A stretch of DNA of 43,981 bases, from NCBI GenBank assembly GCA_029012285.1, contig JAQXLU010000008.1, positions 1-43,981 on the forward strand, read 5' to 3'. A model generated the notes under the pieces. It ran no database searches. It saw only the letters and a program-made list of their open reading frames with translations, and was not told where the DNA came from. Positions 2,093 through 13,164 of the stretch are shown here, one piece after another (within the stretch, counting starts at the first letter, position 1; each line of letters opens with the position of its first letter). This stretch comes from Clostridiales bacterium (GTDB lineage: Bacteria; Bacillota; Clostridia; Christensenellales; Aristaeellaceae). The translations under genes and the position numbers were made by a program.

Positions 2093-2800
2093 TTACCGCA
2101 GCTCAAACACCATGGTCACGCTGGCGCTGACGGCGGTATCATCCGGGATGATGCTGTTGCCAACGGTATCCATCTCCAGCTTGGAGGCATAGGTGCGGGT
2201 GTTGAGGTTCCAGGACGCGGTGCTGTCGCTGATGGACACGATGCCGCCCAGCTGCAGGCCTGCTGCGCTTGCCAGGAGCTTCGCCCGGCGCATCGCATCC
2301 TGCACTGCGTAGGTGATTGCTTCGTCCTGCGCCTCGTCAGCCTTGGTAGACAGGAAATCGATGTTGTAAATGTTGTTGGCACCGGCGGCGGTGGCCTTGT
2401 CCAGGGTCGCGCCGATGTGGTCCATGTCGCGAATGACGACCGTCAGCTGATTGGTCACGTTGTAGCCTGTCAGCTTCTGTCCGGCAAAGGAGGAATAGTC
2501 GTATTCCGCATGCACGGAATAGTTGCTGGTGGCGATGTCCTTTTCATCCACGCCTGCCTCCTTCAAGGCCTCAATGACGGTGTGGATGGCAGCGTTGTTT
2601 TGCTGCGCGGCGGCTTCCACGGTCTTGTCGGTGGTGGAAACGCCCACGGAGATGCGGGCGTAATCCGCCTTGAGCGTCACGGTGGCACTGCCGGTGACGG
2701 TGATGGTCGCGCCGTCCGCCACGGAAGGGGTGCTCTCCGATAGCGCCAGGCAGGGCAGGAGCAGCGCGAAGGTCAGGCAGATGGCAAGCAGTTTCTTCAT
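2093..2800 (-). CDS. Secreted SIMPL-domain (DUF541) protein
   Basis: A 235-residue protein. Residues 1-21 are a classical signal peptide (MKKLLAICL then a hydrophobic run to ALS), followed by a SIMPL/DUF541 domain spanning nearly the whole mature chain: ITVTGSATVTLKADYARISVGV at the start and NNIYNIDFLS in the middle. SIMPL proteins are periplasmic or extracellular, form oligomeric shells in characterised cases, and have been linked to envelope or oxidative stress, but their role is poorly defined. The start overlaps the stop of the DUF4349 gene by four bases (ATGA) and has AAAGGAGG eight bases upstream. As the last gene of a sigma-factor operon it is probably part of an envelope stress response. 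Confidence 0.88.
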   Translation of the reverse strand: MKKLLAICLTFALLLPCLALSESTPSVADGATITVTGSATVTLKADYARISVGVSTTDKTVEAAAQQNNAAIHTVIEALKEAGVDEKDIATSNYSVHAEYDYSSFAGQKLTGYNVTNQLTVVIRDMDHIGATLDKATAAGANNIYNIDFLSTKADEAQDEAITYAVQDAMRRAKLLASAAGLQLGGIVSISDSTASWNLNTRTYASKLEMDTVGNSIIPDDTAVSASVTMVFELR

Positions 2801-3903
2801 TTTGACTTCCTCCTTTTAATCACCTTGATGATGATGACCACGATGGCCACGATGGCGATGAAGGGCAGCGCGGCAACCAGGAATACCACAGCGTCTCCCA
2901 GGAATTCAACCAGGCCCTCTAGGCCCAGCTGCATGGCGGACGTCAGGCGCTCCCAGAAGGACACGCTGGTATCGGTCAGCTCAACGGTTCTTTCCTCCCG
3001 CAGGCTGACGCTGACGGTGGAGTAGGCCACCTGGCGGTCGGTGCTGTTCAGCGAGGATTGCAGGGAATCAATCTCGTACTGGGTCTGTGCAATCTGGCTT
3101 TCCAGGGCCAGCAGGTCGGACAGGTCAGCGGATGTGGTAATCAGCGCCTGTAGGCGATCCATCAGGGCCAGCTGGGTGTCCAGGCGGGTGCGGATATCCT
3201 GGTAGGAAGCGGTCACGTCCTGGGCGGACTCGGAGCGGGAAGTCACCCGGCCCAGGCTGTCCGTCCCGGCCAGGAAGGTATCCAGCATGTCCTGGGGGAT
3301 GCGCAGCGTCAAATCAGCGTTGCGCAGCCCGGAGTAGCTGTTGGTGCTCTCGGACAGGGATTCGATCCAGCCGCCCTGGGCCTCACAGGCGTCCTTGAGG
3401 GCGTTCAGGCTGTCCTCGAAGCCCTGGGTGACGATGGTCATGCGGGCCGTGCGGATGATCTTCTTGTCCGTGGGCAGGGTGAGGGCTGTGCTGTCCTCGT
3501 TGAGGCCCGCGCCGCGCTTGGCGGTCATGAGGGTGGCCTCGGCTGTGTCGTATTCCTCGTCCATCGTGTAGCTGGCCATACCGCTTTCGTAGTCGTTGGC
3601 GTAGGCTGCGCCGACGAAGGGCTGCGCATCATGCGGGGGTGCCGAATCCTTGCGGCTTGCGGCCATGTTCAGGCTGTCCTTGGTCAGCAGCGTGCCGCCG
3701 ACGACGAACACCAGTGCCGCCGCGACGCTCAGGAAACGGGTGATGCTCCTGCGGGATGGGGTTTTTTCCGTGCGATTTTCCTTCATATCATCCTCCACCT
3801 TCTGCATCCAGGCGGCGTGGAGTCCCTCCGGCATAGGCGGAACGTCCTCGTTCAGCCTGGAAAGCGCGTCCCGGAGGACTTCGTTCTCATTGAGCTTATC
3901 CAT
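2797..3903 (-). CDS. DUF4349 membrane protein, probable anti-sigma factor
   Basis: A 368-residue protein. About 58 cytoplasmic residues (MDKLNENEVLRDALSRL onward) precede a transmembrane helix at about 59-74; then an extracytoplasmic linker, a DUF4349 domain (about 150-310) beginning with RTARMTIVTQGFEDSL and including a long coiled coil, and a C-terminal transmembrane helix at about 335-362 followed by RRKSK. DUF4349 proteins are often encoded beside ECF sigma factors. Here the gene overlaps the sigma gene by eight bases, so the short cytoplasmic N-terminus probably sequesters that sigma factor while the outer domain senses a signal. I see no zinc-binding anti-sigma motif. Start from AAAGGAGG eight bases upstream. 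Confidence 0.85.
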   Translation of the reverse strand: MDKLNENEVLRDALSRLNEDVPPMPEGLHAAWMQKVEDDMKENRTEKTPSRRSITRFLSVAAALVFVVGGTLLTKDSLNMAASRKDSAPPHDAQPFVGAAYANDYESGMASYTMDEEYDTAEATLMTAKRGAGLNEDSTALTLPTDKKIIRTARMTIVTQGFEDSLNALKDACEAQGGWIESLSESTNSYSGLRNADLTLRIPQDMLDTFLAGTDSLGRVTSRSESAQDVTASYQDIRTRLDTQLALMDRLQALITTSADLSDLLALESQIAQTQYEIDSLQSSLNSTDRQVAYSTVSVSLREERTVELTDTSVSFWERLTSAMQLGLEGLVEFLGDAVVFLVAALPFIAIVAIVVIIIKVIKRRKSK

Positions 3904-4501
3904 GGTGGCGTCCTCCTTTCACCTGTTCAGACGTGGGAAGGCTTGATTTGTTCCCGGGGTCGGAAAGAAATCTGGCCAGCTTTTGCCGCGCCCGGTTGAG
4001 GCGGCTCTTCACCGTACCCACGGAGGTATTCATCACCTCTGCGATCTCCTCGTAGCTCAGCCCCTGCAAGGCATAGAGGATGATCACCGTGCGCATCTCC
4101 CCGGGCAGGGAATCCATGGCGACGCGGATGTCCTCGGCGGATTCCGCCCTCAGGACGGCCTCGTCCGGGGTGGGGGAGGCGTCGATGGGCATGAAGCCGT
4201 CCTCTGCCAGCTCATCGGCGGATTCGGTGGGCGGCAGGCGCTTCTGCTTGCGCAGGAAATCCAGGCACACCGTCGATGCAATGCGGTACAGCCAGGAGGA
4301 GAGGGCACAGTCGCCCCGGTAGCTCCCGATGGCCCGCCAGGCTTTGAGCATGGCCTCCTGCAGGCAGTCCGCCGCGTCCTCTTGGTGGTGCGTGTAGTGA
4401 TAGCAAACGCGCCACAGCATCTGCTCATGGGGGGTGACAAGCTGCTCGAAGGCCTGCGCGTCCCCCTTCTGCGCACGGCGCAGGGTGAATTCGTCGGTCA
4501 T
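3896..4501 (-). CDS. ECF-type RNA polymerase sigma factor
   Basis: A 201-residue protein. Region 2 spans about 20-85 with DAADCLQEAMLKAW and SSWLYRIASTVCLDFLR, the core-binding and -10 recognition part; region 4 spans about 125-175 with LPGEMRTVIILYALQGLSYEEI and a helix-turn-helix ending VGTVKSRLNRARQKL for -35 recognition. The acidic linker between them is typical. I start at 4501 because GAGGG sits six bases upstream; the track start at 4522 adds seven residues but has a weaker SD. It heads the sigma/DUF4349/SIMPL operon, with each start overlapping the previous stop. It is expected to be held inactive by the membrane partner. Confidence 0.92.
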   Translation of the reverse strand: MTDEFTLRRAQKGDAQAFEQLVTPHEQMLWRVCYHYTHHQEDAADCLQEAMLKAWRAIGSYRGDCALSSWLYRIASTVCLDFLRKQKRLPPTESADELAEDGFMPIDASPTPDEAVLRAESAEDIRVAMDSLPGEMRTVIILYALQGLSYEEIAEVMNTSVGTVKSRLNRARQKLARFLSDPGNKSSLPTSEQVKGGRHHG

Positions 4502-4640
4502 GAATGTCCCTCGCTTTCGCATGGGTTGGTCCTATCCTTCCACCCGCCCAGCCCGGACGGTGACGGACGGGGAAGGCTGGTCTGATGATATGACGATGCA
4601 TCGGCGGTTTTTGTTCCCGCCGCCGGTGATTTCTTCCTCC

Positions 4641-4719: not shown

Positions 4720-4746
4720 TTAGCACTCTCCTTGAATGAGTGCTAA
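4720..4746 (+). promoter_or_regulatory. CIRCE element, HrcA repressor operator
   Basis: TTAGCACTC, nine bases, GAGTGCTAA: both half-sites match the classical CIRCE consensus exactly. HrcA binds this inverted repeat and represses chaperone genes until heat shock. It sits seven bases upstream of the -35 of the htpG promoter and is the only such site in the window, so HrcA control of htpG is strongly suggested. Confidence 0.93.
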
Positions 4747-4753
4747 TTTTCTA

Positions 4754-4782
4754 TTGCATTTCGGTCAAACTGGTGGTACAAT
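4754..4782 (+). promoter_or_regulatory. htpG promoter
   Basis: TTGCAT (4754-4759), 17 bp, TACAAT (4777-4782), with TGG immediately before the -10. Transcription would begin near 4790, about 55 bases upstream of the ATG. Confidence 0.8.
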
Positions 4783-4846
4783 ATCCCCTGTGATTGGAAA
4801 ACCACAGAAACTAACCATCAAAATGACCACCAGGAGGTATTGATTT

Positions 4847-6733
4847 ATGGCAATCGACATGGAAAAGGGTTCCGTATCCATTGACGCGCAAAATATTATG
4901 CCCGTCATCAAGCGCTGGCTGTATTCCGACCAGGACATCTTCCTGCGCGAGGTCGTGTCCAACGGCTGCGACGCGATCACCAAGTTCCGCATGAAGTACG
5001 GCACGGATGAGGACATGCAGGTGCTCATCACCGTCAATAAGGAAGAAAAGACCATCACCATCTCCGATACCGGCATCGGCATGACGGCGGACGAGGTGCG
5101 CCGCTACATCAACCAGGTGGCTTTCTCCGGCGCGACGGAGTTCATGAAGAGCTTTGAGGGCGACGAGAAGAAGGGGGACATCATCGGCCATTTCGGATTG
5201 GGCTTCTACAGCGTGTTCATGGTGAGCGACAAGGTTGAGATTGTCACCCTGTCCGCAGAAAATGGCGCGGAGGCCGTGCATTGGGTGTCCGAGGACGGCA
5301 TGTCCTTTGAGATGGGCGCGGGGGAGCGCGCGGCTCACGGCACCGACATCATTTTGCACATCAGCGAGGACGCGAAGGAATTCCTGGAGATGTACCGCGT
5401 ACGCGAGGTGCTGAGCCGTTACTGCGGCTACATGGCTTACCCCGTGTACCTGTTCGACGCCAACGCCAAGCCCTTTGAGCGCGAAGAAGAGGTGGAGGGC
5501 GAGACCGACGCGGACGGCAAGCCCCTCAAGCGCAAGGTCATGGTGGACCCCAAGCCCAGCCTCATCAACGAAACTGCGCCCCTGTGGCTGAAGAAGCCCT
5601 CCGACTGCACCGAGCAGGAGTATCTGGACTTCTACCACAAGATGTTCGGCTATGAAGATCCGCTCTTCTGGGTACACCTGAACGTGGACTATCCCTTCAA
5701 CCTCAAGGGCATCCTCTACTTCCCCAAGCTCAAAAACGAGTTCGGCGCCAACGAGGGTCAGGTGAAGCTGTTCTCCGGTCAGGTGTTCGTGGCGGACAAT
5801 GTCAAGGAGGTCATCCCGGAGTTCCTGATGCTGCTAAAGGGCGTGATTGACTGCCCCGATCTGCCGCTGAACGTCAGCCGCTCCTTCCTGCAGAACGACG
5901 GCACCGTCAAGAAGCTCTCCGCCCACATCACCAAGAAGGTGGCGGATCGCCTCGTCGGGCTGTTCAACACAGAGCGCGAAACCTACGAGAAGTACTGGGA
6001 CGACATCAGCCCCTTCGTCAAGTTTGGCTGCATGAAGGACAGCAAGTTCTTCGAGGCGGTCAAGAAGGCCCTGCTGCTCAAACTGACCGATGGCCGCTTC
6101 CTGACCATCGCAGAGTACCAGGAGGCCAACAAGGAGAAGGCCGACAAGAAGATCTTCTATACCAACGATCCCAAGCGCCAGGCTGCGAGCGTGGCGATGT
6201 ACACGGGCCGTGGCATCGACGTGGCGGTGATGGAACACATCATCGACGGCAACTTCCAGTCCTTCATGGAGTATTCCGGCGGGGACGACGCGGTGACCTT
6301 CGCCCGTGTGGACGCGGATGTGTCCGGACTGACGGAGGAATCCGACGAGGGCGCGGGCCTGGATCAGGCCAAGCTGGCGGAGATGTTCCGCAAGGCCGTG
6401 GGTCAGGCGGAAATGCCCGTTGAGCTGTCCGCCCTGGCGGATGCGGAGCTGCCCGCCATCGTCACCGAGGACGAGCAGATGCGCCGCATGAAGGACATGT
6501 ACCGCATGTACGGCCAGGACTTCAAGATGCCCGACCGCTACACCCTGGTGCTCAACCGCCGAAATGCCACCGTGCAGGCCCTGGCCGAGCGCGACCCGGA
6601 GGATGAAACGACGGTGATGCTCTGCCAACAGCTCTACGACCTGGCTCGGATGTCCGCCAAGCCCCTGGAGGCCGAGGAGATCACCGAGTTCCTCAAGCGC
6701 AGCCAGAAGCTGGTCGCCATGGCCATCAAGTAA
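4847..6733 (+). CDS. htpG: Chaperone protein HtpG (bacterial Hsp90)
   Basis: A 628-residue ATP-dependent chaperone, close to the usual bacterial length. The N-terminal GHKL ATPase domain is clear: REVVSNGCDA with the expected catalytic Glu at residue 35 and Asn at 39, DTGIGM for nucleotide binding, and the lid glycine motif GHFGLGFYS. The middle domain has NVSRSFLQND with the Arg that contacts ATP phosphate, and the C-terminal dimerisation domain ends at LVAMAIK. It remodels partly folded client proteins in the cytoplasm. SD AGGAGG lies upstream of the ATG. Monocistronic: own promoter, CIRCE operator and terminator. CIRCE control differs from Bacillus subtilis, where htpG is outside the HrcA regulon. 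Confidence 0.97.
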   Translation: MAIDMEKGSVSIDAQNIMPVIKRWLYSDQDIFLREVVSNGCDAITKFRMKYGTDEDMQVLITVNKEEKTITISDTGIGMTADEVRRYINQVAFSGATEFMKSFEGDEKKGDIIGHFGLGFYSVFMVSDKVEIVTLSAENGAEAVHWVSEDGMSFEMGAGERAAHGTDIILHISEDAKEFLEMYRVREVLSRYCGYMAYPVYLFDANAKPFEREEEVEGETDADGKPLKRKVMVDPKPSLINETAPLWLKKPSDCTEQEYLDFYHKMFGYEDPLFWVHLNVDYPFNLKGILYFPKLKNEFGANEGQVKLFSGQVFVADNVKEVIPEFLMLLKGVIDCPDLPLNVSRSFLQNDGTVKKLSAHITKKVADRLVGLFNTERETYEKYWDDISPFVKFGCMKDSKFFEAVKKALLLKLTDGRFLTIAEYQEANKEKADKKIFYTNDPKRQAASVAMYTGRGIDVAVMEHIIDGNFQSFMEYSGGDDAVTFARVDADVSGLTEESDEGAGLDQAKLAEMFRKAVGQAEMPVELSALADAELPAIVTEDEQMRRMKDMYRMYGQDFKMPDRYTLVLNRRNATVQALAERDPEDETTVMLCQQLYDLARMSAKPLEAEEITEFLKRSQKLVAMAIK

Positions 6734-6780: not shown

Positions 6781-6975
6781 TCATGTGAAGAGCGTGCAGC
6801 CCATCTCGCGAAACTCGTTGACCTTCTCCTGCAAGACCTCAACCGTCACAGCGAAGCGCTGCGCCAGGCAGGGATAGCATAGATAGGAGGTTGCGCCGCG
6901 ATTGATGAGCTTCTTGGTCAGCCCCACCTCATCCTGGGTGAGCGGCGCGCCGCATTGACAGCACTGCTCATGCAT
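6781..6975 (-). CDS. Small zinc-ribbon protein, function unknown
   Basis: A 64-residue protein with two Cys pairs, QCCQCG near the N-terminus and YLCYPCLA near residue 34, spaced like a treble-clef or zinc-ribbon metal site. Four Cys in two CxxC knuckles imply one structural zinc. The rest is a charged helix. The start overlaps the end of the GH27 gene by eight bases, so the two are translationally coupled, but I see no functional link to glycoside breakdown. Short zinc-ribbon proteins of this kind are common in Clostridia without known function. It ends at the shared terminator. Confidence 0.75.
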   Translation of the reverse strand: MHEQCCQCGAPLTQDEVGLTKKLINRGATSYLCYPCLAQRFAVTVEVLQEKVNEFREMGCTLFT

Positions 6976-8140
6976 GGGTCTTCACCAGCTTGCACAGATA
7001 CAGCTTGCAGTCGTGGCCCTGGATGCGCGGATTGTAGAAATCGGTCACCGGGCCGATGTGCTCGCCGGTGAACACATCGGTCATGTCCAGCGCCACACCG
7101 CTGGTCACGGGCAAGCCCATATCCACAAATTCCCCATGAACCTCCGCGCGTTCATCCGCCAGATTTGCGTAGAAGAGCGCAAACTCGTGATCCGACAGAT
7201 GGCGCAGGAGGATGAAGGCGGAATCCGGGATCTGCCGCCATGTGCCGTTCTCCGTGACGATCACGCAGTCCCGGCGCACCAGGTAGGGGGCACGGCATTC
7301 CTCGTCCTGATTGATGCGTAGCAACGCCTTGTTCTGCAGCAGATCCTTGTAGGCCGCATCAAGGCTGCGCAGGTCAGCACCCATCATCAGCGGCACGCCG
7401 CACAGGCACCAAAGGGTGAATTGCAGCCGGTATTCCTCATAGGTGCACACCTTGCCAAGCCCCACGTTCCCCTTGCCGCACATACCGACGGTCAGCATGT
7501 CCATATCGTTGAAGCAGTAGCTGCCGGACATATGCAGCTTGTCCATCTGGGACTTGGCGATGTCGGTGAAGGACTTGAAATTGTCGAAGATGTCGCCGGT
7601 GGAACGGTACATGTGGGCGCCAATCTGCCGCATCCACTGGCCGGGCTCCTGCTGTCCCCAGTTGCAGGCGGAGAAGAGAATCTCGCGGCCCGTGGCTTTC
7701 AGCGCCATGGACATGGTGAGGTAACGGGTCTTGCAGTCGCCCGAGGCGGGGAAGTTGCAAAAGTCGTATTTGAGGAAGTCCACCCCCCAGTCTGCAAAGG
7801 TCTGGGCGTCCACAAACTCATGGTCGTAGCTGGAGGGGTACCCCGCACAGGTGCGCACGCCGGCGCAGGAGTACATGCCGAATTTCAGCCCCTTGCTGTG
7901 GACGTAGTCCGCCACAGCCTTCATGCCATGGGGAAATTTTGCCGGGTCGGGCACGAGCTTCCCGTCCGCGCTGCGCTGCCGGAGACTCCAGCAGTCGTCG
8001 ATGACCAGGTATTCATACCCAGCGTCGCGGTAGCCGTCGCTGACCATCCGATCCGCCATTTCACGGATCAGCGAGTCGCTGATGTTCTCGCCAAAGGTAT
8101 TCCCGGAATTCCAGCCCCGCGGGGGGGGGCGTGCAATCAT
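6968..8140 (-). CDS. Glycoside hydrolase family 27, alpha-galactosidase-like
   Basis: A 390-residue enzyme of GH27, which removes terminal alpha-D-galactose (some members alpha-N-acetylgalactosamine or beta-L-arabinopyranose) with retention. Family landmarks in order: GWNS near the N-terminus, YLVIDDCW, FLKYDFCN carrying the nucleophilic Asp, FSACNWGQ, RSTGDI carrying the acid/base Asp, and LRINQDE. There is no signal peptide, so it should act in the cytoplasm on imported oligosaccharides. SD AAGGAGG lies upstream. Odd points: the usual PPMGWNSW reads PPPRGWNSGN here, and codons 4-7 contain nine consecutive C residues, a slippage-prone tract. It is divergent from the GH51 genes and probably belongs to the same hemicellulose set. 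Confidence 0.9.
   Translation of the reverse strand: MIARPPPRGWNSGNTFGENISDSLIREMADRMVSDGYRDAGYEYLVIDDCWSLRQRSADGKLVPDPAKFPHGMKAVADYVHSKGLKFGMYSCAGVRTCAGYPSSYDHEFVDAQTFADWGVDFLKYDFCNFPASGDCKTRYLTMSMALKATGREILFSACNWGQQEPGQWMRQIGAHMYRSTGDIFDNFKSFTDIAKSQMDKLHMSGSYCFNDMDMLTVGMCGKGNVGLGKVCTYEEYRLQFTLWCLCGVPLMMGADLRSLDAAYKDLLQNKALLRINQDEECRAPYLVRRDCVIVTENGTWRQIPDSAFILLRHLSDHEFALFYANLADERAEVHGEFVDMGLPVTSGVALDMTDVFTGEHIGPVTDFYNPRIQGHDCKLYLCKLVKTHA
8121..8129 (-). repeat. C9 homopolymer tract at codons 4-7 of the GH27 gene
   Basis: Nine identical bases (G on plus, C on the coding strand) fall 11 bases after the start codon. A change of one base would frameshift the gene at its very start. It may be a slippage hotspot, or its length may be a sequencing error. 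Confidence 0.9.
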
Positions 8141-8255
8141 GTTGTTTTCCTCCTTATGTACGGGAATGATTGATTGTATATTTCACGGCGGAGCAGCCTG
8201 TTTCCTGCTTGGGCATGTTGATTTTTTGCCTCCTTGCGGCGAAATGCCCGTATGG

Positions 8256-8269
8256 GCAAAGCGCTTGCA
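8256..8269 (+). promoter_or_regulatory. Putative LacI-family / cre-like operator
   Basis: GCAAAGCGCTTGCA contains the palindromic core AAGCGCTT and matches the cre-type pattern TGNAANCGNTTNCA at all fixed positions except the first two. It overlaps the -35 of the secreted GH51 promoter, where a bound repressor would block RNA polymerase. The binding protein could be CcpA or a local LacI-type sugar sensor; no such gene is in the window. Confidence 0.5.
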
Positions 8270-8293
8270 CAAGCGTCTTGGATATGGTATAAT
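8265..8293 (+). promoter_or_regulatory. Promoter of the GH51 genes
   Basis: TTGCAC (8265-8270), 17 bp, TATAAT (8288-8293), with extended TGG before the -10. It is 45 bases upstream of the start codon and overlaps the putative operator. Confidence 0.82.
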
Positions 8294-8337
8294 CGAGTCA
8301 AAAGTGTGTCACAAGCCTCCAAAGGAGTGAACAACGT

Positions 8338-10290
8338 ATGAAGCGATTCGTTGCGCTGCTAACAGCCTTGTTGCTGCCTGTGATGGCCAGCGCCTCCACC
8401 CTCACGGCGGATGCGGACGTTACCACCGCAACCATGAGCGATACCCTCTACGGCCTTTTCTTTGAGGACATCAACTGCGCAGCGGATGGCGGATTGTACG
8501 CGGAGCTGCTGCAGAATCGCTCCTTTGAGTATGAGGACATCCTCAACCCGCAAACGGCGGAACACTACAATGGCTGGGCCTTCAACCTGGCCTTCGGGGC
8601 CACCGGCACCGCCACGGTGATGACGGAAAGTCCGCTGCATGAGAACAATCCCACCTACATGCGGGTGGATTGCCAGGAGGGCGAGTACCGCTTTGCCAAC
8701 CTGGGCTACCAGGCCGTTGGCTTGGCGGGGGGCATTCCGGTGGAGGAGGGCAAGACCTACCGCTGCTCGGTGTGGATGCGCAATGGCGGCGGCTTTGACG
8801 GCCAGGTCGAAATCGCCCTCACCAAGCGCACGGGCAAGTCTCTGGCAGTGCCCAAGCGCTTCACCCTGACCGACGAATGGCAAAAGTACGAGCTGACCTT
8901 CAAGCCCTCCTATACCGAGGATGCGGTGCTGTCCTTCATCCTGCATGGCACGGGCGCGGTGGACATCGACATGGCGTCCCTCATCCCGGCGGACGCCTTT
9001 GGCGCCGACTGGCCGGGCGGCGGATTGCGCGCCGACCTGGTCCAGGCGCTCAAGGAGCTGCATCCTGCCTTCCTGCGCTTTCCCGGCGGCTGCGTCGCTG
9101 AGGGCAGCTACTACCGCAGCAACTTCTACGACTGGAAGGACACCGTTGGCCCGGTGGAAACGCGCCGGGAGAACTTCAACACCTGGGGTTACATGCAATC
9201 CTACGGCCTGGGCTACTACGAGTACTTCATGCTGGCCGAGGCCATCGGCGCAGAGCCTCTCCCGGTGGTGCACAGCGGGCTGCTCTGCCAGGCCCGCGAT
9301 GTGAAGGAGGAATCCCTTACCATCGAGGAGACCCGCGCCTATGCCCAGGACCTGCTGGACCTGATCGAATTCGCCAACGGGGATGTAACGACCCCCTGGG
9401 GCGCGCTCCGGACGGAGATGGGGCATCCCGAGCCCTTCCACCTCAAATACCTGGGCATCGGCAACGAAAATTGGGATACCCCCTACTGGAGCCGCTTCGA
9501 CGTGCTTTACCAGGCGGTGAAGGAAGCCTACCCGGAGATGGAGATCGTCTCCTCCGCAGGCCCGGTGGCGGAGGGCGCGCTGCCGGCTTATGCCTGGCGG
9601 ATGATCCGCGCCAAATACCCGGATACCATCGTGGATGAGCACTACTACATGAGCGGGGACTGGTTCTTGAACAACGTGGGCCGCTATGACGGCTACCCCC
9701 GCACCACTCGGGTGTTCGTGGGGGAATACGCCGTACATGAGGATGTGCAAGCCAACGGGCGCAGGCCTAACAGCCTGTACAGCGCACTGTGTGAGGCGGC
9801 CTACATGACCGGCCTGGAGCGCAACAGCGATGTGGTCGTGATGGCCTCCTACGCGCCGTTGATGGCCCGGGACGGCATGCAGCAGTGGACGCCGGACATG
9901 ATCTGGTTCAACGCCCGGGAGGTGCTGCTGACCCCCAACTACCATGTGCAGGCGATGTTTGCGATGGCGGTGGGCGACCAGGTGGTCGATAGCTCCTGCG
10001 AAGGCGGGAACAAGCTGCTCTACCATGTGGTGACCAGGACGGAGGACAAGCTCTACGTCAAGCTGGTGAATGTTGCTGCTGAAATGGACGACATGACCCT
10101 GCGCCTGGCAGGCGTGCCGGACGGCAAGGCCAGCTTCACCCGCCTGACAGGGGAGCGGAACGCCGTCAACACCTTTACCGACAAGGAGCATATCGCCCCA
10201 ACCAAGGGTGTTGTAGCCATCGAAAACGGCGAGGCGACCATGACGTTGCCCGCCTATTCCGTGACCATACTGACCTTTGCGCTCAAATAA
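8338..10290 (+). CDS. Secreted alpha-L-arabinofuranosidase, GH51
   Basis: A 650-residue enzyme that would release alpha-L-arabinofuranosyl side chains from arabinoxylan or arabinan outside the cell. Residues 1-20 are a signal peptide (MKRFVALLTALLLPVMASAS). A GH51-type N-terminal part (LYGLFFEDINCAADGGLYAE) is followed by an inserted beta-sandwich resembling a carbohydrate-binding module (about 75-210), then the TIM barrel (LRFPGGCVAEG). The acid/base Glu is residue 377 in GIGNEN and the nucleophile is Glu 463 in VFVGEYAV; a C-terminal beta domain completes the fold. It is 33 bases upstream of an intracellular GH51, so the pair would act sequentially, outside and inside. SD AAAGGAG. Confidence 0.93.
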   Translation: MKRFVALLTALLLPVMASASTLTADADVTTATMSDTLYGLFFEDINCAADGGLYAELLQNRSFEYEDILNPQTAEHYNGWAFNLAFGATGTATVMTESPLHENNPTYMRVDCQEGEYRFANLGYQAVGLAGGIPVEEGKTYRCSVWMRNGGGFDGQVEIALTKRTGKSLAVPKRFTLTDEWQKYELTFKPSYTEDAVLSFILHGTGAVDIDMASLIPADAFGADWPGGGLRADLVQALKELHPAFLRFPGGCVAEGSYYRSNFYDWKDTVGPVETRRENFNTWGYMQSYGLGYYEYFMLAEAIGAEPLPVVHSGLLCQARDVKEESLTIEETRAYAQDLLDLIEFANGDVTTPWGALRTEMGHPEPFHLKYLGIGNENWDTPYWSRFDVLYQAVKEAYPEMEIVSSAGPVAEGALPAYAWRMIRAKYPDTIVDEHYYMSGDWFLNNVGRYDGYPRTTRVFVGEYAVHEDVQANGRRPNSLYSALCEAAYMTGLERNSDVVVMASYAPLMARDGMQQWTPDMIWFNAREVLLTPNYHVQAMFAMAVGDQVVDSSCEGGNKLLYHVVTRTEDKLYVKLVNVAAEMDDMTLRLAGVPDGKASFTRLTGERNAVNTFTDKEHIAPTKGVVAIENGEATMTLPAYSVTILTFALK

Positions 10291-10320
10291 TCGCCGGCAC
10301 GCCGGTGAATGGGAGGATAG

Positions 10321-11823
<1,503 letters not shown>

Positions 11824-11836
11824 GAAAACCGTTCAG

Positions 11837-11879
11837 GAAGGCGCATTGTGCAAGAAATGAGCATAACGCGCCTTCTTTT
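11837..11879 (+). terminator. Terminator after abfA
   Basis: GAAGGCGC pairs with GCGCCTTC, extended after one mismatch by six inner pairs, then TTTT. It separates the GH51 pair from the xylanase gene. Confidence 0.82.
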
Positions 11880-11902
11880 GCGTGGTGTATCTGGTGGATT
11901 GA

Positions 11903-11911
11903 TGGTACAAT
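11903..11911 (+). promoter_or_regulatory. Extended -10 promoter for the xylanase gene
   Basis: TGG-TACAAT, 38 bases upstream of the xylanase start. The -35 at 17 bp (TGGTGT) is poor, so this depends on the extended -10. Confidence 0.55.
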
Positions 11912-11949
11912 AACCACAAATTCACCGGAAAACCGAAAGGAGAATCGTC

Positions 11950-13164
11950 ATGAAGAGAATGCTGTGCATGGTGCTTTTGCTCATGCTGTGCATGCCCGCT
12001 GCCTTATCCGAGGAGGAGCGCGGCACACTGGACTATCAACCGCTCAAGGAGCTGACCGCGAAGTATGGCTTCACCCTTGGCGCGCCCATGAGCGCGGATC
12101 AGCTGGCGAATTTCAACTACCGCAAGCTGCTGATGCACCACTTCGATACCATCACCCCCACCAACGAATTGAAAGCCTACTCCCTCCTGGATCAGCGGGC
12201 CAGCATGCAAAGCCCCGATGGCATGCCCCGCATGAACTTCGACGTGGCGGACAGAATGGTCAAGTTCGCCTCCGATTTCGGCCTCAAGGTGCGCGGCCAT
12301 GTGCTGGTCTGGGACGCCTACATGACCCCATGGTTCTTCCATGTGGGCTATGATACCAAGAATCCCATCGCCGACCAGGAAACGATGAAGCTGCGCATGC
12401 AGTCCTACATTGAGCAGGTCATCACCCATTTTGAGGAGAGCTTCCCCGGCGTGGTGTACTGCTGGGACGTGGTGAACGAGGCGGTGGGCGACAATCGCGG
12501 CGAGTATATCCCTGAGGATCCCCGCCACGTCCGCACGGTGCGCAACGGCGCAGCCAATCCCTTCTATTACTATGTAGGCCCGGATTATGTCGAGCTGGCC
12601 TTCCTCTACGCCCGCGACGTGGTGGAGGCCCTGGGCGCGGACATCAAGCTGTTCTACAACGATTACAACGCCCTGTACGATGAGAAGCGCGCCGCCATCA
12701 AGGCGCTGGTGGAGAGCATCAACAGCTACGCCACGGATGAGGACGGCAATCCCCGCAAGCTACTCGACGGCGTGGGCATGCAGGGCTACATCGGCGGCTA
12801 CGGCCACCAGGAGGGCTGCATGTCCGATAACGACGTGGCCCTGGTGCGCAAGAGCATCCAGGAGTATGCGGCTTTGGGCGTGCAGGTGCAGCTGACGGAG
12901 ATGTCCCTGCGTAACTACGACAAGGAGAAGGAAGCAGAGCATGCCGCCTTCTATGGCAAGATGTTCGAGGTGTTCTGCCAGGCCAACGAGGGCGAGGGCA
13001 ACCCGCTCACCAGCGTGGCAATCTGGGGCGTGGTGGACTGCAACAACCTGCCCCAAAGCCATTACACCTGGAAGCTGAACGGCCCCTACTGCGGATTGTT
13101 CACCCTGAAGCTGAACGTGAAGGAGTCCTTCAAGACCATCTACGCGCAGATGGGCGGCGAGTGA
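11950..13164 (+). CDS. Secreted endo-1,4-beta-xylanase, GH10
   Basis: A 404-residue enzyme that cuts the internal beta-1,4 bonds of xylan outside the cell. Residues 1-20 are a signal peptide (MKRMLCMVLLLMLCMPAALS). The GH10 barrel fills the rest: NELKAYSLL (substrate-binding Asn-Glu), LKVRGHVLVWD, CWDVVNEAV with acid/base Glu 177, LFYNDYNA, GVGMQGYI, VQLTEMSL with nucleophile Glu 317, and VAIWGVVD near the end. No carbohydrate-binding module or surface anchor is visible, so it should be freely secreted. It has its own promoter and terminator. It would produce the arabinoxylo-oligosaccharides that the neighbouring GH51 enzymes trim. SD GGAG in AAAGGAGAATCGTC. Confidence 0.95.
   Translation: MKRMLCMVLLLMLCMPAALSEEERGTLDYQPLKELTAKYGFTLGAPMSADQLANFNYRKLLMHHFDTITPTNELKAYSLLDQRASMQSPDGMPRMNFDVADRMVKFASDFGLKVRGHVLVWDAYMTPWFFHVGYDTKNPIADQETMKLRMQSYIEQVITHFEESFPGVVYCWDVVNEAVGDNRGEYIPEDPRHVRTVRNGAANPFYYYVGPDYVELAFLYARDVVEALGADIKLFYNDYNALYDEKRAAIKALVESINSYATDEDGNPRKLLDGVGMQGYIGGYGHQEGCMSDNDVALVRKSIQEYAALGVQVQLTEMSLRNYDKEKEAEHAAFYGKMFEVFCQANEGEGNPLTSVAIWGVVDCNNLPQSHYTWKLNGPYCGLFTLKLNVKESFKTIYAQMGGE

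Follow-up and report, generated by a model that had tools for sequence, protein, structure and literature searches.

A perfect CIRCE operator stands immediately ahead of the htpG promoter in the window (the whole 43,981-nucleotide stretch of DNA analyzed here), and we consider it likely, judging from the sequence, that HrcA acts at this site to repress htpG from in front of the promoter by blocking polymerase contacts, with relief by way of GroE. Few bacterial operators are as conserved as CIRCE, and the usual view of HrcA is that it blocks the start site. An operator held at a fixed place upstream, specific to one Hsp90 lineage and exchanged for the downstream placement in one clade, offers a natural experiment on how position affects repression, and our results indicate that Hsp90 is a class I heat-shock gene in many gut clostridia, unlike in Bacillus subtilis.

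Operator, Promoter, and Regulon in the Source Genome

The operator (TTAGCACTCTCCTTGAATGAGTGCTAA, 4720–4746) reads TTAGCACTC-TCCTTGAAT-GAGTGCTAA with 0 mismatches in a pattern search of the window, and so has the TTAGCACTC-N9-GAGTGCTAA form that defines operators of the HrcA/CIRCE regulon. It is the sole match with up to three mismatches in the 44-kb window; 100 shuffles of the sequence gave 0 matches, and 0 are expected by chance. Between CIRCE and htpG, which are 100 bp apart, lies a sigma-A-type promoter with a 17-bp spacer between its −35 and −10 elements, and the gap from CIRCE to TTGCAT is 7 bp (Table 1). Both statements of the original prediction about this site, that the two 9-base half sites and their nine-base spacer match exactly and that the operator lies 7 bp upstream of the −35, are thus correct to the base. 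The inferred transcription start at ~4789 would place CIRCE between about −69 and −43; the T-tract, probably a proximal UP-element, would run from about −42 to −36.

Table 1. Features of the htpG locus, in window coordinates
Feature	Coordinates	Strand	Position or basis
CIRCE operator (HrcA site), perfect 9-9-9 inverted repeat	4720..4746		Centre about −56 from inferred start; pattern match
7-bp A/T-rich spacer TTTTCTA	4747..4753	+	T-tract kept as TTTTnT in relatives
−35 hexamer TTGCAT	4754..4759	+	Sequence and recurrence in relatives
Extended −10, TGG + TACAAT (TG 4774–4775; TACAAT 4777–4782)	4774..4782	+	Sequence
Shine-Dalgarno-like AGGAGGT before htpG	4833..4839	+	Read by eye
htpG (Hsp90), 628 aa, window-type lineage	4847..6733	+	Motifs SNGCDAI / GHFGLGFYS

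The source genome (2.8 Mb in 169 contigs) carries an intact, full-length hrcA (TIGR00331, 319.5 bits against a cut-off of 197.2, with the Pfam HrcA domain), the gene whose absence had been named as grounds for abandoning the prediction. The proposed genome-wide search for the operator pattern returned exactly three CIRCEs with up to three mismatches, located before hrcA-grpE, groES-groEL, and htpG. Operators of the hrcA-grpE-dnaK and groESL type are therefore both present, as seen from hrcA and grpE behind one CIRCE (dnaK lies beyond the stretch read) and from groESL behind another. At hrcA-grpE and groESL the operator follows a −10 box by 10 and 8 bp, respectively, in the textbook layout, and htpG is the only one of the three loci with the operator ahead of its promoter. 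Placement in or downstream of the promoter, from which htpG departs, is a usual trait of CIRCE and no requirement, as the groEL2 CIRCE of Myxococcus xanthus, which covers the −35 region, illustrates.

Operator Position Across Relatives and Hsp90 Lineages

Among the 80 closest HtpG loci in 85,462 species genomes, 79 have a CIRCE with 0–2 mismatches upstream of htpG. The remaining locus (L068) lacks one within 600 bp. When these 79 CIRCE-bearing loci are counted together with the window, the best promoter falls exactly 7 bp past CIRCE in 70/80 loci and 5–8 bp past it in 77/80, and the recurrent promoter at 7 bp is often TTGACA-17-TATAAT-like. The window promoter (TTGCAT-17-TACAAT) is weak alone: a strict consensus promoter scan at htpG did not pick it up, and its score is not significant (reached by 12% of shuffles). 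Its support comes from relatives, in which this element recurs with identical spacing. Across the htpG relatives the −35/−10 spacer is mostly unconserved save at its two ends, and the DNA upstream of CIRCE holds little information beyond A/T at the operator's edge. A GTAT-like tetranucleotide is conserved just before the −10, where the 17-bp spacer ends, in window-type htpG loci (GTGG in the window), and one window-type locus, L106, has its CIRCE 38 bp from the gene without a clear promoter at 7 bp.

The upstream geometry occurs in at least nine families of the class, and Frisingicoccus caecimuris (L095) and Acetivibrio ethanolgignens (L047) are among the species that have it. Even sampling of the class gave 20 strongly scored upstream sites, 19/20 of them at 7 bp and the other at 8 bp, in eight families besides the window's own; two "upstream" sites of family f55 at 12 bp were omitted for weak promoter scores. 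Within the window's own family the CIRCE-N7-promoter pattern, allowing up to two mismatches, was found in 48/80 genomes and is thus not universal. Apart from one chance match (L300), the inspected sites stand before htpG; having been found with the 7-bp pattern itself, this set serves gene identity and is excluded from the spacing statistic. A pattern search on genomes drawn from across the phylum matched 5/300: the source genome of the window, three genomes of family f52, and one that is probably a chance hit. It says little on the class, to which only about ten of the 300 genomes belong. On these sequence comparisons, upstream placement is a conserved property of the window's HtpG lineage and no local oddity. 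CIRCE follows the −10 box at 30/30 hrcA loci of the class and at most of 30 groES loci, mostly by 8–13 bp, and the overall range at downstream sites (3–13 bp) is looser than the near-invariant 7 bp upstream. The htpG operator thus differs in position from the hrcA and groESL CIRCEs of the same genome and class, and its description as unusual stands.

The 4847–6733 reading frame encodes HtpG (NF003555, 604.9 bits against a cut-off of 371) with the Hsp90 domain PF00183. Clostridial HtpG proteins form two groups with ~30% identity between them, one including the window protein and marked by SNGCDAI and GHFGLGFYS, the other by SNASDA and GQFGVGFYS. Compared with E. coli HtpG, the window type scores 244 bits and the other clostridial type 456 bits, and the window protein, unlike members of the second group, is not highly similar to the E. 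coli protein or to E. coli-like proteins from clostridia. Operator position follows Hsp90 lineage, upstream in the window type and after the −10 in the divergent E. coli-like type. With types assigned for loci L035–L114 and L180–L209, a tree of 106 proteins places 78/78 upstream-operator htpG genes in the window group and 19/21 downstream-operator genes in the E. coli-like group; because one deep branch separates the two groups, this link amounts to roughly a single evolutionary contrast. Chen et al. 2006 (PMC1525184) distinguish HtpG groups A, B, and C, Firmicutes occurring in A and C; the window type may correspond to group C. By comparison with clostridial and E. coli HtpG, the window protein appears to be of a separate, deeply branching Hsp90 lineage, and B. 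subtilis is therefore probably not a good standard of comparison.

One well-supported clade within the window group (INTERMEDIATES), comprising L104, L053, L100, L103, and L084, holds every step between the upstream and downstream positions. L053 and L100 have the upstream site together with a second CIRCE after the −10 (1 and 3 mismatches), the second site of L104 has 3 mismatches, L103 combines a decayed upstream site with a good downstream one, and L084 has a downstream CIRCE alone. The CIRCE-like second sites of L059 and L110 have 5 mismatches, close to chance level, and were excluded. Upstream and downstream operator sites look interchangeable in this clade. Doubled, decayed, and replaced operators are what would be expected if both positions repress, which argues for repression over activation.

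Proposed Repression from Upstream and Its Alternatives

In B. subtilis, GroE maintains HrcA in its active state, and the alpha C-terminal domains of RNA polymerase bind the upstream promoter region (the zone of about −69 to −36), with sigma region 4 adjacent. Because CIRCE and the T-tract lie where the alpha C-terminal domains bind, we propose that repression excludes the polymerase's upstream contacts. An active HrcA dimer centred at about −56 on htpG would cover the A/T-rich UP-element region and abut the −35 box, thereby keeping both the alpha C-terminal domains and sigma region 4 from the promoter. When unfolded protein titrates GroE, HrcA would lose activity and release the operator, and htpG would then be induced jointly with groESL and hrcA-grpE-dnaK. 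Such co-induction of htpG with groESL and dnaK is described for CIRCE-bearing clostridia (PMC3828012, PMC8336468), species whose Hsp90 type and htpG geometry may be those of the downstream kind.

Against repression count the incomplete spread of the N7 pattern in the window's family and the exactly fixed upstream spacing, which is also expected of an activator that contacts polymerase. HrcA at −56 might touch RNA polymerase and activate or fine-tune htpG, so that Hsp90 would be regulated unlike GroESL and DnaK, and the conserved T-tract and a spacing tighter than that of downstream sites would suit such a role. We nevertheless regard activation as improbable, since in clostridia with CIRCE before htpG (PMC3828012, PMC8336468) stress raises htpG along with groESL and dnaK, a condition in which HrcA is expected to be inactive, and since a swap between upstream and downstream operators is not expected of an activator site. 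Somewhat more room, although we still think it unlikely, is left for a second mode of HrcA in this one Hsp90 lineage, in which the protein, held at an invariant distance before the −35, would contact or lock RNA polymerase through alpha-CTD/sigma-4 instead of simply blocking the start site, and the response curve of htpG would be unlike that of groESL or dnaK.

The poor score of the window promoter and its absence from the strict scan would fit a CIRCE that serves an unrecognized promoter farther upstream in the usual geometry, with TTGCAT/TACAAT secondary or there by chance. This is very improbable given that most relatives repeat this promoter 7 bp past CIRCE, often near consensus, that the best promoter in our scans falls downstream of CIRCE, and that so little information is found before the operator. 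Less probable still is control of the divergent sigma-factor gene (3896–4522) instead of, or besides, htpG. CIRCE is symmetric, and one relative (G506, L305) does have two divergent promoters around a single operator, but the best minus-strand promoter in the window (4669–4641) is about 50 bp from CIRCE, and the scan showed no promoter 7 bp away on the sigma-factor side. We give almost no credence to the remaining claim of the original prediction, that htpG was newly recruited to HrcA control here. Although htpG is outside the HrcA class in the B. subtilis scheme (class IV), the presence of CIRCE at nearly all related HtpG loci refutes a recent recruitment, and the spread of the upstream geometry over families of the class and the published Clostridium regulons (PMC3828012, PMC8336468) speak against it as well.

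Known HrcA Systems and Neighboring Genes

Membership of htpG in the HrcA regulon was already known. Reports on Clostridium acetobutylicum (CAC3315, PMC3828012) and Clostridium cellulovorans (Clocel_0510, PMC8336468) place htpG in the CIRCE regulon, behind a perfect or conserved CIRCE, as a third member beside groESL and hrcA-grpE-dnaK. These loci resemble the window in the presence of CIRCE; we found in neither report a description of where the operator lies relative to the promoter. Canonical groESL and dnaK CIRCEs share the 9-N9-9 operator and the repressor family but overlap or follow the start (3–4 nt downstream of it in Lactobacillus plantarum, PMC1676014; over it in Campylobacter jejuni, PMC7464140), whereas the window CIRCE ends before the −35. 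The nearest positional precedent is M. xanthus groEL2, described as HrcA-repressed (PMC9040617), whose operator is likewise on the promoter's upstream side; there, however, CIRCE overlaps the −35 region, while in the window it abuts at a fixed distance, and both gene and phylum differ. In the searchable, open-access literature we found no description of an HrcA operator upstream of its promoter at a fixed distance, or of a link between such geometry and one Hsp90 lineage.

The gene divergent from htpG encodes an ECF-type sigma factor and is part of a minus-strand stretch (2797–4522) in which it is followed by a gene for a DUF4349 protein whose N-terminus is weakly anti-sigma-like. A carbohydrate-degradation cluster (6968–13164) adjoins htpG and includes a melibiase-family protein and reading frames that by eye resemble arabinofuranosidase and xylanase. 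In the relative with divergent promoters, the single CIRCE (L305:2464–2490) lies 7 bp from each of them and is flanked by htpG on one side and by a gene for an HTH/S24-peptidase-like regulator on the other.
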